From positions 1 through 22,534 of the forward strand of contig CALEDJ010000024.1 of assembly GCA_937951485.1 (NCBI GenBank): 22,534 nucleotides of DNA, read 5' to 3'. The notes under the pieces are model-generated. The model had not been told where the DNA came from. It saw only the letters and a program-made list of their open reading frames with translations, and did not search any database. Shown in pieces: positions 1 through 22,497 of this stretch. The stretch's first letter is position 1. Each line of letters starts with the position of its first letter. The stretch comes from an uncultured bacterium. GTDB taxonomy: Bacteria > Hydrogenedentota > Hydrogenedentia > Hydrogenedentales > CAILVY01. The position numbers and the translations under genes are program-made.

Positions 1-240
1 CAAGGCGAGGGCGGAGGGGAAGGCGAGGGGGAAGCAGAAGGCGAGGGGGAAGGGGAGGACGAAGGGGAAGGCGAGGGGGAAGGGGAGGGCGAAGGGGAAG
101 GCGAGGGGGAAGGGGAGGGCGAAGGGGAAGGCGAGGGTGAAGGGGAAGGCGAAGGGGAAGGCGAAGGGGAAGGCGAGGGGGAAGCAGAAGGCGAGGGGGA
201 AGCAGAAGGCGAGGGGGAAGGCGAGGGGGAAGGGGAAGGC
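1..240 (+). repeat. GE-coding hexanucleotide microsatellite
   Basis: About 240 bases of purine-rich repeats built from GGCGAG, GGGGAA and GGCGAA units, each encoding Gly-Glu. The unit is six bases, so gain or loss of copies keeps the frame. Several units are interrupted by GAAGCAGAA (E-A-E) and one by GAC. Two further tracts of the same kind lie at 4799-4996 and 7038-7176 on the minus strand. Confidence 0.9.
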
Positions 241-597
241 GAAAGTCAGGGGCACCTGTATGAGAATCCACATACCGCGGACCAGAACAACGATGGGCGC
301 ATCAGCCTCTCCGAACTGCTGCGCGTCATCCAGTTCTACAATTCCGGCGGATACCACTGCGCCGACCCACCCGAAAGCACAGAAGACGGTTATATGCCGG
401 GGGCAGTTGGCGACCAATCCTGCGCGCCGCACGCCGGCGACTACAATCCCCGGGACTGGCGCATCAGCCTTTCTGAACTCCTCCGTCTTATCCAGTTCTA
501 CAACACCGGCGGATACCATCCCTGCCCGGATGACCCATTCAGCGAAGATGGCTTCTGCGCCGGCCCGATGCCGGAACAGCAATACCAAAGCGATTGA
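1..597 (+). CDS. C-terminal part of an exported GE-linker protein with twin dockerin-like repeats (5' end outside window)
   Basis: The open frame begins at base 1 without a start, so the gene is truncated by the window edge. Residues 1 to about 80 are an almost pure Gly-Glu linker with a few Ala and Asp interruptions. Two repeats follow. The first contains [20 protein letters not shown], which fits a 12-residue EF-hand calcium loop (D1, N3, D5, E12). The second contains [21 protein letters not shown], one residue longer in the loop, so its calcium binding is less sure. Cys residues follow each repeat, and an EDG(F/Y) motif ends each half. The same linker and module end the protein encoded at 8993-6705 on the other strand. 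The role is unknown; by analogy with dockerins it may bind a partner or anchor the protein outside the cell. The missing N-terminal part would define the activity. It converges on the next gene with 37 bases between stops. Confidence 0.85.
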
Positions 598-4401: not shown

Positions 4402-5292
4402 CTATCTCCCTGTGGTTTCATGGCGCCGACGGGATACGACGTTCATGGTGACAATGCCGCCCAGAGCGCACGCCACGATCATTGCAATCAATCCCCGCAT
4501 GCCTGCTGCCGGTATGCCTGTCATCACAATCAATTCGACCGGTTCAGAAGCGAATGTGACAACGCCAATAGTGGCTTCGCACATATAAAAGCCCGCATGT
4601 TCCAATTGCACATTGGGTATGGTATGTGTGGCCGCCAGCGCATCGGGTATGGGCGAAAAATCCGTTTTCTGGGCTTCGGCAAAATACCACTGATACGAAT
4701 CCGCTTCGGGAGCGCCGGAAACCGCTGTTTCAAAGGTATGGCTTTCACCGATTGTCTTGTAGACAGGGCTATCTCCCAGAATGACAATCTCGAACTCTTC
4801 ACCCTCGCCCTCGCCTTCACCCTCGCCCTCGCCTTCACCCTCGCCCTCGCCTTCACCCTCGCCTTCGCCTTCGCCTTCACCTTCACCCTCGCCTTCGCCT
4901 TCACCTTCACCCTCGCCTTCGCCTTCACCCTCGCCTTCACCCTCGCCTTCGCCCTCACCCTCGCCTTCGCCTTCACCCTCACCTTCGCCCTCGCCGCTCA
5001 AATCAAAAATCGGTTTGTGTGCGCCGTGATGCAGCAAATCCCCGACCGGTGAAACGGAAAGACCGACGAAAGGCTGTCCGATGGAACCTATGGCAAACGT
5101 ACCGTATGCATCTACAATGAGCACACCGCCGGACGCGATCAGATCATCTTCCATACGGCTGCCGTCGGGTGCGCTGCGCCATCCGGCCCATGCGGCGCCG
5201 CACAACAGCACCGCCAATGCGGCCGGTGGCAGTGCCCGCATCGGCCAGCCTCGCAGCATGGAGCATCGTTGCGGAAATCTTGTATAACACAT
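4402..5292 (-). CDS. Exported Ig-like protein with GE linker and C-terminal membrane anchor
   Basis: 296 residues. A signal peptide ends near residue 37 ([20 protein letters not shown]). A short conserved-looking region follows ([20 protein letters not shown]), then a GE linker at about residues 98-165. After the linker is an Ig-like domain with the usual signs: SYQWYF for the B-strand to Trp region and HAGFYMCEA for the Tyr-x-Cys of strand F. The C-terminus is IPAAGMRGL, a hydrophobic span, then RRRHETTGR. This has the three-part layout of sorting tags such as PEP-CTERM-type signals (short motif, transmembrane helix, basic tail), though I do not recognise it as a named class. AAAGGAG seven bases before the ATG fixes the start. 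It is 23 bases downstream of the fibre-like gene, so the two are likely co-transcribed. It probably sits on the cell surface; the ligand is unknown. Confidence 0.8.
4799..4996 (-). repeat. GE-coding hexanucleotide microsatellite
   Basis: About 200 bases of GGCGAG/GGTGAA-type repeats read on the minus strand, encoding the uninterrupted Gly-Glu linker of the Ig-like protein. It is in frame at any copy number because the unit is six bases. Confidence 0.9.
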
Positions 5293-5315: not shown

Positions 5316-6632
5316 TTACTTCACCTTGATGAAGAACACCATTGACATGTTGACAGGCCGGGTTTCCGTAGTGCCGGTATTGTTATTGACGTTAATATTA
5401 CCGCTGATGCTGTGTGTGTGTCCGCCTGCCGAACTCGCCGAAGCAGTGACCGGATGCGTATGCGCCCCCGCTGATGCGGCAGTGCCGCTCAGGCTGTGAG
5501 AATGGTTACCGGCATATTGTGTGTATTGGTTTGCGCCATGATAGGGCCCGGAAAAGTTATTTTTCGGCGTTGATGGTCCCGCCCCCACACCGGTAATGTA
5601 GAGGGCGTCATTGATATGAGAACCGGTCTCTGCGTGCTGGTGATTTCCGGCCTCGGCAGTTGTTCCTGTAACGCTGTGTGTATGGGCGCCTGTGGAATCG
5701 GTAGAGGCCGTGATGGCGTGGGTATGTGTTCCGGCATCGCTGGTGCTCAGGTTCCATGTGGTGGGGTGGTCATGTGGCCCGACACTGTGGCCCTGAACTT
5801 GACCAGGGATTGTGCCGCCGCGAAGAAACCGCTGGGAATTGTTCAGGTCTGGAGTAGCCAGATTCATCACCGCATCAGGAATGCCTTGGGATGCCGGGGT
5901 GGTGCCGTCGCAGGTGGCCCAACCCTGCGCGCGTAATTGCGCAAGTGTGGGCACACCGGGCAGACCGGTGTATATGGGGATAATTGTACCAATAGGCACC
6001 GCCATGGCGGTGATGTTGGCGCGGATATCGGCATGCGCGGCGTTGTCCGCGTCGTGCGCGGCGATATCGTCGGCGATCTTGGTGCGGATATCGGCATGCG
6101 CGGTGTTGTCCGCGTCGTGCGCAGTCACCGCCGAATCAATTTCAGCCTGAATGTCCGTTTTGCTCATACCTTCAAGCGTATTGGCATCTTCCGCTTTGGC
6201 GGCGTGGAACGCATAGGGAGCCCGGGTCAGGGGAATGCGTGGATCGTAAATCTGCATGCCGGTGCCTGTATCCACCGCCACTCCGAGCCATAGCGGCGCA
6301 CCTGCCTGGTCTTGGAACAGCGCACCAAAGGGATTTATCAGTCCCAGTTCCACGCTGAACGCCCCGTCCAGCACTGCCACGGATTGCGTTTCACTCCAGA
6401 GGGCCGTACCGCCTGACGGCGCATCATATATGGCAAAGTCCATCTGATATACGCCGTCCGGAACAGGGTCGCCCCCAGCATCCCGCAGTACGCCCTGATA
6501 GGTGACGCTGTCCGCCGCGCCCACCGGCAGGGCAAGCATCACGACGGCAAGCGTCATTATTCCCAATCCACGACCGCTGCACCGTTTCCGAGAAAAAATC
6601 CCCCCTGTCTCATAGATCTTTGTCTTATTCAT
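5316..6632 (-). CDS. Exported phage tail-fibre/collar-like protein with GxHxH repeats
   Basis: 438 residues. An N-terminal signal sequence (LGIMTLAVVMLALPVGAAD) sends it out of the cell, which phage fibres do not have. Residues about 40-155 hold a beta-rich head domain (VTYQGVLRDAGGDPVPDGVY, then IYDPRIPLTRAPYAFHA) seen in many secreted bacterial proteins. Residues about 160-205 hold two 21-residue repeats around AHDADN-AHADIR, probably a trimeric coil. Residues about 215-290 resemble a tail-collar domain (VPIGTIIPIYTG, GWATCDGTTPASQG, LNNSQRFLRGG). The last third has about seven GxHxH motifs (GTHTHA, GAHTHS, GNHQHA, GNHSHS, GAHTHP, GGHTHS). In T4 gp37 the HxH pairs bind iron along a trimeric needle. 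AAGGAGG seven bases before the ATG sets the start. Role inferred: surface fibre or adhesin. No other phage genes are present. Confidence 0.8.
   Translation of the reverse strand: MNKTKIYETGGIFSRKRCSGRGLGIMTLAVVMLALPVGAADSVTYQGVLRDAGGDPVPDGVYQMDFAIYDAPSGGTALWSETQSVAVLDGAFSVELGLINPFGALFQDQAGAPLWLGVAVDTGTGMQIYDPRIPLTRAPYAFHAAKAEDANTLEGMSKTDIQAEIDSAVTAHDADNTAHADIRTKIADDIAAHDADNAAHADIRANITAMAVPIGTIIPIYTGLPGVPTLAQLRAQGWATCDGTTPASQGIPDAVMNLATPDLNNSQRFLRGGTIPGQVQGHSVGPHDHPTTWNLSTSDAGTHTHAITASTDSTGAHTHSVTGTTAEAGNHQHAETGSHINDALYITGVGAGPSTPKNNFSGPYHGANQYTQYAGNHSHSLSGTAASAGAHTHPVTASASSAGGHTHSISGNINVNNNTGTTETRPVNMSMVFFIKVK
6021..6122 (-). repeat. 63-bp tandem duplication inside the fibre-like gene
   Basis: A near-identical stretch of about 39 bases starts at 6021 and again at 6084, so the period is 63 bp, or 21 codons. 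It encodes the duplicated AHDADN-AHADIR segment. The divergence between copies is small, which suggests recent duplication or conversion. Confidence 0.7.
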
Positions 6633-6704: not shown

Positions 6705-8993
6705 TCATGCTTGTGTTCCAGCGCAAAAACCGTCTTCGGAGTCTCCACATGCATGATAACCATCGGAATTATAAAACTGAATCAGCCGTAACAGTTCACT
6801 CAAGGAAATGCGCCAGTCCTGGGGATTGTAGTCGCTGGCATGCGGCGCACAGGGTGCAGGATTGCTTTCGCTGTAAGGCGGCGTAACCTGGCCGGCTAAA
6901 AAACCATCTTCCGAACTGGAAGGTGGCACATCACATCGCAGCCCTCCAGAATTATAGAATTGAATAACCCGCAACAATTCCGAAAGATTGATTCGGTTGT
7001 CTCGGTTTTGGTCCGCACTGTGATATTGCCCAAAACCCTCACCCTCGCCTTCGCCTTCACCCTCGCCTTCGCCCTCGCCCTCGCCTTCACCCTCGCCCTC
7101 GCCTTCACCCTCGCCCTCGCCTTCACCCTCGCCTTCGCCTTCACCCTCGCCCTCGCCTTCACCCTCGCCCTCGCCGCTATCCACCCCAAAAACAGCCGTT
7201 ATGTTTTTGTCTGCATCCATGATCACCACTAAAGGATTTTCACTGCCTGTTGCATCGCCCTGCCACGACTCGAATCGCCACCCCTCGGCGGGGAATGCTT
7301 CCAGCATGACGGTTTCATTCTCCGGATAGAAATGCAGTCCCACAGAAGGTACGGTATTGCCGCCGCCAATGGCGCTGACCTCCAAGAAAAACAACACCTG
7401 CGTGAAGACCGCCAGAATTGACTTGTCTGAATCCATACGCAACGTGGCAGGGTTAGCGTTTCCGCTCAAATCGCCATGCCATTCATGAAATCGCCAACCG
7501 CTGTCAGGATATGCCGTTACGGTAATTTCCTCATTGGCGGGATGAGTGCTTATGCCGGGTGGGTCCACGCTCCCGTTGCCAGAGACTGCGGTTGTGAGGA
7601 CGAATTCACTGGGACTTTCCTCGAATACAGCGGTAACCGATTTGTCCGTGTTCATGAGAAGCAGGGAGGGATTCTCGTCTCCGCTCAGATCGCCCTGCCA
7701 GCCAATGAAACGCCATCCTGAATCGGCGTCGGCGGTGATCAACACTTCTGCGCCGATCTCGTGTCGGGTTTCACCCGGCGGGTCCACATTGCCATTGCCG
7801 ATCACCGAGGTGGTCAGAGTGACATGGGTCGGGATAATCTCAAAGACGCCGGTTACAACCTTGTCAGAGTCCATCACAATCGTTGTGGGATTTTCATTGC
7901 CGCTGAGGGCCCCGATCCATTCCACAAAACGGGAACCTTCGTTCGGAACGGCTTCAATGGCCACCACGGCGGCAACATCATGCATGGTGGTGCCGGGGGG
8001 CGTGACCACCCCGTCTCCGATGGTCATTGTCGTAAGTGAATACTGGGGCGGCGCTTCCACAAACACCGCTGTCACGGTCTTATCTCCATCTATGTACAGC
8101 GAGGTCGGGTTGACGGAACCTGTCAGATCGTCTTCCCAATGATCGAAGACCCACCCCGGAGGCGTTGGAAAATCCGTACTTGCCGATACGACGATGAATC
8201 GTCCATCCAGGACGCCATGGACACCGGTCGGTGGGGTGGTAATTCCCTGGCCTCTCTGCTGCATGGTCAAGGTGTAGTCGGCCTCGGAAAATATCGCCCG
8301 AACCATCTTGTCGCTATCCATGATGACCTTTTGGTTATATGGATTCTCGCCGCTCAAGGCGCCTTCCCAATGGTCAAACGCCCAGTCGCCATCGGGGGAT
8401 ACGATAAACGCCACTTCCGCATAGGCGTTGTACGTGTAAACACCCGGCGGCGGAAAAACAGTGCCATTCCCTTCGGATTCCACCGTGAGCGTGTATTGTT
8501 CCACTTCTGTAAAGACCGCTGTGACGGACTTATCGCCATCCATGAATACATTGATGAACATATTTGAACCAGCGCCATCACCCTCCCAATGATCAAGCGC
8601 CCAACCTGGGGCCGCGAAGGCGGCCACGGAGGCATAAGCGCCATCCAGATAACTGTGCTCTCCGGGCGCGGGCGCTGTGGTTCCATTACCGATCACCGCG
8701 ATGGATAGCGTCCAGGCGCCTTCCACGAATACTGCCGTGATCTCTTTGTCGGAATCCATGACCAATCCCAGACCGATGGGATCGCCTTCCCATGCGACGA
8801 ACACCCACCCCGGCGAAGGGAGTGCTGTTGGAAAAATGATTGTGCCCGACTCATACTGATGTGTTCCTGCGGCCGGTTCGGTTGTGCCAGAACCGATCAC
8901 ATGTACCGTAAGTGTGTACATTTCCGGCTCCGACCAGGCTCCCATGGCCAATACCGCGGCGAGTACCACAACTGACAAAACAATTTGTCGCAT
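6705..8993 (-). CDS. Exported protein with eight InlB-type bacterial repeats, GE linker and twin dockerin-like repeats
   Basis: 762 residues from the chosen ATG. The signal peptide is MRQIVLSVVVLAAVLAMGAW. Eight repeats of about 70-75 residues follow (to about residue 600). Each has Y/F-x-L-x-x, a G(N/S)G turn, PP-G, GW-F-x-W-x-G-D, and MDSDK-x-(V/I)-TAVF, the pattern of divergent InlB B-repeats in surface proteins. A GE linker of about 50 residues comes next. The end is the same twin module as the gene at 1-597: [20 protein letters not shown] and [21 protein letters not shown], each with Cys and EDGF. A GTG at 9005 also opens the frame, but GGAG six bases before the ATG at 8993 favours the latter. 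It reads as a large non-enzymatic surface or matrix protein with a stalk. The partner of the C-terminal module is unknown. Confidence 0.85.
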   Translation of the reverse strand: MRQIVLSVVVLAAVLAMGAWSEPEMYTLTVHVIGSGTTEPAAGTHQYESGTIIFPTALPSPGWVFVAWEGDPIGLGLVMDSDKEITAVFVEGAWTLSIAVIGNGTTAPAPGEHSYLDGAYASVAAFAAPGWALDHWEGDGAGSNMFINVFMDGDKSVTAVFTEVEQYTLTVESEGNGTVFPPPGVYTYNAYAEVAFIVSPDGDWAFDHWEGALSGENPYNQKVIMDSDKMVRAIFSEADYTLTMQQRGQGITTPPTGVHGVLDGRFIVVSASTDFPTPPGWVFDHWEDDLTGSVNPTSLYIDGDKTVTAVFVEAPPQYSLTTMTIGDGVVTPPGTTMHDVAAVVAIEAVPNEGSRFVEWIGALSGNENPTTIVMDSDKVVTGVFEIIPTHVTLTTSVIGNGNVDPPGETRHEIGAEVLITADADSGWRFIGWQGDLSGDENPSLLLMNTDKSVTAVFEESPSEFVLTTAVSGNGSVDPPGISTHPANEEITVTAYPDSGWRFHEWHGDLSGNANPATLRMDSDKSILAVFTQVLFFLEVSAIGGGNTVPSVGLHFYPENETVMLEAFPAEGWRFESWQGDATGSENPLVVIMDADKNITAVFGVDSGEGEGEGEGEGEGEGEGEGEGEGEGEGEGEGEGEGEGEGEGEGEGEGFGQYHSADQNRDNRINLSELLRVIQFYNSGGLRCDVPPSSSEDGFLAGQVTPPYSESNPAPCAPHASDYNPQDWRISLSELLRLIQFYNSDGYHACGDSEDGFCAGTQA
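7038..7176 (-). repeat. GE-coding hexanucleotide microsatellite
   Basis: About 140 bases of the same six-base Gly-Glu repeat, between the eighth InlB-type repeat and the dockerin-like module. It is the third such tract in the window, shorter than the other two. Confidence 0.9.
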
Positions 8994-9091
8994 CTCATTC
9001 TCCACGGGTTATTAAAAACATTTCATCTTCACGGTCATCAGAAAATCGGCGTGCAAAAAAATCAAACGCCCACGCTCAACTATCGAACCTC

Positions 9092-21749: not shown

Positions 21750-21811
21750 AAACTGCTGTGCTTTCCAAAAAGGCTTTGCGTGCCGTGTAAGACCCTTTTC
21801 GTTAAAAAGTT

Positions 21812-22073
21812 CCCCCTCACCCCACCCCTCTCCCAGGGGGAGAGGGAGTTTATGGCGAAACCTCAGATATGCTCCTACTCTTCCCCCAGGGAGAGAGGGA
21901 GTTTATGGCGAAACCTCAGATATGCTCCTGCTCTTCCCCCAAGGAGAGAGGGAGTTTATGACGAAACCTCAGATATGCTCCTGCTCTTCCCCCAAGGAGA
22001 GAGGGAGTTTATGGCGAAACCTCAGATATGCTCCTGCTCCCTCTCCCTATGGGAGAGGGGTGGGGTGAGGGGG
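21812..22073. repeat. Palindrome-bounded array of four 53-bp tandem repeats
   Basis: Perfect 24-bp inverted repeats lie at 21812-21835 and 22050-22073. Between them a 53-bp unit recurs four times: the marker GTTTATG starts at 21848, 21901, 21954 and 22007. Each end also forms its own hairpin (CCTCTCCC arm with GGGAGAGG arm), and each 53-bp unit contains a degenerate copy of that hairpin (CTCTTCCCCC with GGAGAGAG). The period is not a multiple of three, so the array is not coding. It resembles REP/BIME-type or MITE-type elements and has no spacers of the CRISPR kind. Confidence 0.85.
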
Positions 22074-22406
22074 AGACAATACTATCGTCCGCAGGGGGTG
22101 AAATGAAGCAAAGCGCGATGAAGCCCACCCTTGATCATCGCCTCATGACCCCGTTCCCGCCGTGTCATGAAATAGACATGGTGGGTGCCGCTTCGCTACA
22201 CCCAACTGACAGTGCTCATCATTTGCTCCGGGGGTAGCGCGGCCACGGCTTCCGTCACATTGCGGGAGTGGCGTGAGGAGGCGACAAGGCTTATCGCTAT
22301 TTTTTTTCCAGAGAGACTCAGATTCGACGAAAAGGTCTTTGAACCACCCGTGACATCCTGTATTTTCAATGGTTCAGGTGGTGCAAAAAAAGAGGAAGGC
22401 AACAAC
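22074..22406 (+). other. Intergenic stretch without a supported gene
   Basis: Apart from a REP-like hairpin at 22180-22206 I see no gene. Short open frames read through it but have no ribosome site and continue into the repeat array or antisense to the tRNA. Confidence 0.5.
22180..22206. repeat. REP-like imperfect hairpin
   Basis: GGTGGGTG and CACCCAAC arms plus an inner GC/GC pair around a TTC loop. Seven of eight outer positions pair. Similar short palindromes are common as dispersed intergenic repeats; copy number cannot be seen from this window. Confidence 0.5.
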
Positions 22407-22497
22407 TGGCGGAGAGGGTGGGATTTGAACCCACGGTGCGCTTTTGGCGCACAACGCCTTAGCAGGGCGCCACCTTCGGCCACTCGGTCACCTCTCC
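22407..22497 (-). tRNA. tRNA-Ser(GCU)
   Basis: On the minus strand the acceptor arms GGAGAGG and CCTCTCC pair perfectly, followed by G and an encoded CCA. The D-arm has GAGTGGCC. The anticodon stem GCGCC/GGCGT encloses CTGCTAA, giving anticodon GCT (reads AGC and AGU). A long variable arm with GTGCGC and GCGCAC stem is typical of class II serine tRNA. The T-arm GTGGG-TTCAAAT-CCCAC is canonical. Confidence 0.95.

Follow-up and report, generated by a model that had tools for sequence, protein, structure and literature searches.

Twin calcium-loop modules on exported proteins of Hydrogenedentota: a probable divergent docking module of a non-cellulosomal cohesin system

Type I dockerins (PF00404), such as those of C. 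thermocellum and C. cellulolyticum, consist of two near-symmetric repeats of a calcium loop and a helix, and usually form the C terminus of exported proteins. In cellulosomes, dual binding is an established property of symmetric dockerins (e.g., PMC5429695), and small monovalent adaptors carrying one cohesin and one dockerin are a known scaffoldin class, exemplified by ScaC of Ruminococcus (PMC11557425). Complexes with ordinary dockerins have also been proposed outside cellulosomes: for freshwater Planctomycetes a cohesin/dockerin complex that is not a cellulosome, the "planctosome", has been hypothesized (PMC6461901), and a cellulosome-like, non-cellulosomal complex has been proposed for the Cloacimonadota Ca. 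Stygibacter (PMC8542988). In the literature, with subscription papers thinly covered, we found no description of a Hydrogenedentota cohesin/dockerin system or of the module reported here.

The twin module shares with type I dockerins the two near-symmetric loop-helix repeats, the usual C-terminal position on exported proteins, the presence of cohesins in the same genome, and an apparent alternation with PF00404 on a related adaptor. It differs in its length (about 100 residues vs. about 60), a second loop of 13-15 residues, Glu at loop position 12, added beta hairpins, conserved cysteines, a consensus of its own, and scores below the Pfam cut-off.

The window, that is, the whole stretch of 22,534 bp analyzed, is a complete contig (C24) of a 4.55-Mb metagenome-assembled genome (G000, hereafter the source genome). 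The original prediction held that two exported proteins in it share one architecture at their ends. Both proteins do end in a Gly-Glu (GE) linker, a first repeat (D-x-N-x-D...E) and a second repeat (DYNP(R/Q)DW), and their twin modules are 70% identical. Export of the protein at 1-597 cannot be shown, because the contig start cuts its reading frame inside the GE repeat and the N terminus is missing. The features are as follows.

1-252, forward strand: (Gly-Glu)n linker of truncated protein 1, inside which the contig breaks (translation; tandem repeat at 2-243).
253-567, forward strand: twin module of protein 1 (ORF 1-597; profile match; AlphaFold2 model with pLDDT 92.6 and pTM 0.82).
280-315, forward strand: calcium loop of repeat 1 in protein 1, 12 residues (sequence; Pfam EF-hand models below cut-off).
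439-477, forward strand: loop of repeat 2 in protein 1, 13 residues (sequence; loop statistics).
6705-9005, reverse strand: protein 2, with a signal-peptide-like N terminus, eight InlB B-repeat-like (Flg_new_2) domains (PF18998, E 1.4e-71), GE linker and twin module.
7026-7187, reverse strand: (Gly-Glu)n linker of protein 2 (translation; tandem repeat at 7035-7175).
6717-7025, reverse strand: twin module of protein 2 (profile match, alignment).
6978-7013, reverse strand: calcium loop of repeat 1 in protein 2, DQNRDNRINLSE (sequence).
6795-6833, reverse strand: loop of repeat 2 in protein 2, 13 residues (sequence).

Other parts of the window deserve mention in their own right. An exported Ig-domain protein (4402-5292, reverse strand) has a GE linker followed by a C-terminal transmembrane (TM) segment and an RRR tail, without the module; in this neighborhood, proteins have a second means of anchoring. 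The protein at 5316-6632 (reverse strand) is trimeric-fiber-like: NCBIfam NF053851, which models the N-domain of Bdellovibrio mosaic adhesive trimer proteins, matches it below the cut-off (E 1.6e-7, 31 bits against 60), and its C-terminal half has weak matches to phage tail-fiber repeats. At 21776-22092 lies a tandem array of five 53-bp copies whose edges carry long inverted repeats (arms 21811-21848 and 22037-22074, 95% complementary) and a tRNA nearby at 22410-22497.

The observation made in the window is real, far beyond chance, and larger in extent than first described. The module lies at 37 sites in the source genome (best E 2.7e-74), with both repeats complete at 31, so that it is not restricted to the two genes of the window. 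About a third of these copies lie at contig ends (window 1-252; C4, C9, C16, C21, C38, C43, C46, C51, C52, C55, and C63); the assembly breaks there at GE-coding repeats and near-identical modules, so that the counts are approximate and the N termini uncertain. As computed across the phylum, the module occurs in 41 of 68 Hydrogenedentota genomes. Four of them (G001, G002, G039, and G040) have at least 74 copies each, many others have one to six, and family f11 has almost none. No module was found in about 318 sampled genomes from outside Hydrogenedentota, with at most 13 candidates scored per genome, and a search of plasmids gave no match; within this sample the proposed lineage specificity holds.

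Each repeat consists of a calcium loop and a helix with the consensus ISLSELLR-(V/L)-IQFYN, and a profile of the 31 complete source-genome modules has 17 invariant columns, including H7, D10, E21, C36, C57, D63, W69, and E75. Among 155 modules from fetched loci, a set biased toward likeness to the query, the first loop is a 12-residue EF loop in 149, whereas the second has 13 residues in 120, 14 in 10, and 15 in 25. The repeats thus do not both have canonical EF loops, and the predicted combination of an intact first loop and a second loop one residue longer describes most modules. In the same set the two helices of one module are identical on average at 7.6 of nine residues. Both sequence and predicted structure place the helices at residues 19-31 and 73-84, with an acidic loop ahead of each.

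The module usually ends 2-9 residues ahead of the stop codon, and 147 of 150 modules lie within a few residues of the C terminus. This position, together with the signal peptides of the carriers, among them a gingipain-type peptidase, is what would be expected if the module directed secretion or sorting from the C terminus, as PEP-CTERM or type IX CTD domains do. Five copies in the source genome (C36, C29 twice, C43, and C45), however, directly follow a signal peptide, with the payload behind them and in most cases a GE linker between. Moreover, the module contains neither a TM segment nor a basic tail, whereas the phylum has separate TM-basic tails. The N-terminal copies largely refute a sorting signal, to which we give hardly any credence. 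They also mean that the supposed C-terminal cassette is mostly, not strictly, C-terminal; its GE linker is common but not obligatory, being absent at C58, C23, C38:5899, C11, C45:122697, and C8.

Sequence searches of NCBIfam, Pfam, and the PDB gave no name for the module. Matches to TrAA12 and to "serine-rich" entries cover only the GE linker. The Pfam dockerin model PF00404 matches seven of the 31 source-genome modules weakly (best E 0.0026) and none above its cut-off; the first member of the set reaches 14.2 bits against a cut-off of 22.9. EF-hand models likewise match weakly, below the Pfam cut-off. Neither outcome that would have refuted the original prediction was cleanly observed: the module extends beyond two genes, and, for all that the genome encodes cohesin domains, ordinary type I dockerins fall outside the module profile. 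A profile alignment of module and dockerins (hhalign, probability 15%) involved only four dockerins caught by pattern and is too weak for use. When the predicted structure was compared with 350,542 PDB chains by Foldseek, dockerins ranked first, with weak scores (E at least 0.7, Z at most 4.0), and the 17 PDB entries with Z of at least 2 are all dockerin entries. Since these fold scores are weak, we use the term "dockerin-like" and leave the module outside PF00404.

The payloads in the source genome are diverse: CHRD, lactonase propeller, GLUG, P-domains, PhoPQ-related, Kelch/PKD, rhamnogalacturonan-lyase-like, and LRR/Ig proteins, as well as M14 peptidase, C25 (gingipain) propeptide, trypsin/TSP3, and cohesin/PKD proteins. 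No glycoside hydrolase family was found among them. Nor did these payloads and the cohesin proteins examined include what defines a cellulosome, a multi-cohesin scaffoldin with a CBM and dockerin-bearing glycoside hydrolases. Among genomes of families f2 and f7 with few modules, two architectures are seen repeatedly: a V8-like serine-protease protein of 830-880 aa and a cohesin-like protein with the module, of 265-310 aa. The V8-like protein (GNSGSPV motif) is conserved, with the twin module at its end, at eight loci (L200, L203, L204, L205, L208, L222, L223, and L228), and in the f2 and f7 genomes it is one of only one to six module proteins.

Cohesins (PF00963) occur in 59 of the 68 Hydrogenedentota genomes, the source genome among them. 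They are few (one to nine per genome) compared with up to 74 or more modules, although these cohesin counts are lower bounds because divergent cohesins, the third gene of the operon described below among them, escape Pfam. Most cohesin proteins examined carry a single cohesin. A candidate for the co-occurring receptor that the original prediction proposed to look for is present in most genomes, but copy number singles out no partner: across the 68 genomes, whose rows are not phylogenetically independent, module number correlates only weakly with cohesin number (rho 0.25, P = 0.04), and Pfam dockerins correlate better with cohesins (rho 0.56). Module-rich and dockerin-rich genomes tend to differ, a tendency that is not significant and is confounded by phylogeny.

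The strongest evidence is genetic, and consists of cohesin fusions, operons with membrane-anchored cohesins, and the alternation with a dockerin in one genome (G064). A profile of the fusion protein finds cohesin and module together in one small ORF in 25 genomes (G001, G002, G004-G010, G014-G019, G027-G030, G033, G035, and G037-G040). The fused domain computes as a cohesin by sequence (Pfam, 1.4e-13; PDB cohesin profile, 2.3e-10), and its predicted structure is a cohesin beta-sandwich (Foldseek 1.5e-14 to 6kge_A; Z 19.0 and rmsd 1.8 over 134 residues to 5nrk_A); more divergent fusion members from f2 were placed by alignment and a purpose-built profile only. The model of the whole fusion (pTM 0.68) leaves the orientation of the domains unsure and shows no interface. 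In the source genome the order is reversed in one protein (on C29), which runs signal peptide, module, GE linker, cohesin (27.7 bits, cut-off 24.1), PKD, and beta-helix, and a cohesin-like protein on C27 has a C-terminal TM segment and an RRARRRT tail. Such a fixed association with cohesins, like the near-identity of the helices across many unrelated payloads, would be unexpected for a passive calcium-stabilized structural cap, or a self-associating module, with no dedicated receptor. A rigid cap outside the cell would fit the conserved cysteines and the EF-type loops, and the GE linker by itself could serve as a spacer, but we consider this reading very unlikely.

The fusion gene belongs to a recurrent operon that encodes, in order, a dockerin protein, the cohesin-module protein, a cohesin-linker-TM protein, and a cohesin-TM protein. 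It was found in f5 (G027-G030) and f8 (G039 and G040) and in part in G001, G002, and G038; in the source genome it was not found, only the two dispersed cohesin-like proteins. The first gene encodes an N-terminal ordinary dockerin and a DGxGxPD-rich C terminus, and the cohesin proteins after the fusion gene have a C-terminal TM segment and a basic tail in those read to the end. Small proteins of 165-235 aa with a dockerin-type match also lie beside cohesin operons (L232:3602-4126, L248:3823-4374, L244:7021-7518, and L233:1532-2230), several with a conserved tail like RLT..APP.

The draft genome G064 (family f11) has no modules and 21 Pfam dockerins. Its operon agrees with the others in the kinds of genes but not in their order, and the adaptor gene joins a cohesin to an ordinary dockerin. 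The best cohesin match of this cohesin is the cohesin-module gene of G002 (47% identity), and in a tree of 66 cohesin rows it groups with the cohesin-module genes of G001 and G002 (support 98/88). In dockerin-rich f11 genomes, many large proteins carry dockerins that share 50%-65% identity with the one on this adaptor. The simplest reading of this one draft genome is that module and ordinary dockerin are alternatives in the same slot.

That alternation on a related adaptor bears on a further possibility, that the module tags proteins for a surface receptor other than a cohesin, the adaptor cohesin collecting ordinary dockerins while the module plugs the assembly into another receptor. Adaptors have been proposed to switch between cohesin and dockerin types (PMC11557425), the ordinary dockerin on the operon's first gene is a possible ligand of the adaptor cohesin, and module number tracks cohesin number poorly. 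Against this, the module appears to take the place of an ordinary dockerin when G001 and G002 are compared with G064, its nearest predicted fold is, with weak scores, the dockerin, and no other receptor was found among the sequences examined. We regard a non-cohesin partner as unlikely.

We consider it probable instead that the twin module is a divergent, Hydrogenedentota-specific docking module of dockerin type, by which a variety of exported proteins attach to a cohesin scaffold that is not a cellulosome. The original suggestion of a pairing like that of dockerin and cohesin, with a consensus of its own, gains support from the module's invisibility to Pfam, its weakly dockerin-like predicted fold, the cohesin fusions, and the neighboring membrane-anchored cohesins. 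Dozens of exported proteins that are otherwise unrelated carry the module at the end or directly behind the signal peptide, where it would bind cohesins, perhaps in a calcium-dependent manner, and the GE linker usual between payload and module would form a flexible link. The two near-identical helices probably offer two equivalent faces, as in dual-binding dockerins, and we infer dual binding by analogy with those of cellulosomes. Some cohesins would be held in the membrane by the order signal peptide, cohesin, linker, TM segment, basic tail, and the conserved small protein made of signal peptide, cohesin, and twin module would act as a monovalent adaptor. Proteases, lyases, beta-propellers, and adhesin-like proteins would in this way be displayed on cohesins at the cell surface, without a cellulosome.

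Such a system would resemble the planctosome in its anchoring cohesin protein, its adaptor of dockerin and cohesin, its peptidase payloads, and its lack of cellulases; the planctosome anchor has a lamin-tail domain and its dockerins are ordinary, whereas Hydrogenedentota have TM-basic-tail cohesins and an unrecognized docking module (PMC6461901). In Ca. Stygibacter, too, peptidases, one of them gingipain-like, carry dockerins at the C terminus, but there is one large scaffoldin with multiple cohesins and CBM instead of mostly single-cohesin proteins (PMC8542988). The Hydrogenedentota adaptor, like other monovalent adaptor scaffoldins, is a small secreted protein with one cohesin and one docking module, and differs from the ScaC type in that the docking part is the twin module and that there is no link to cellulose degradation (PMC11557425).

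A bolder reading is that, within this one phylum, a cohesin surface system swapped one docking module for another: a twin EF-like module, either unrelated or strongly diverged, would have replaced the dockerin on adaptors and payloads, expanded to 70 or more copies per genome, and created a new, orthogonal class of cohesin partner. This we hold to be possible, with a little less than an even chance. If it is true, the phylum would supply a new orthogonal cohesin-dockerin pair of use in protein assembly. The payloads, the adaptor, and the membrane-anchored cohesins form a defined protein set for binding tests, and the natural alternation of docking modules on related cohesins offers a way to ask how cohesin specificity changes. 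A docking module missed by both Pfam and NCBIfam also means that surface complexes would have been overlooked in the annotation of this uncultured phylum.
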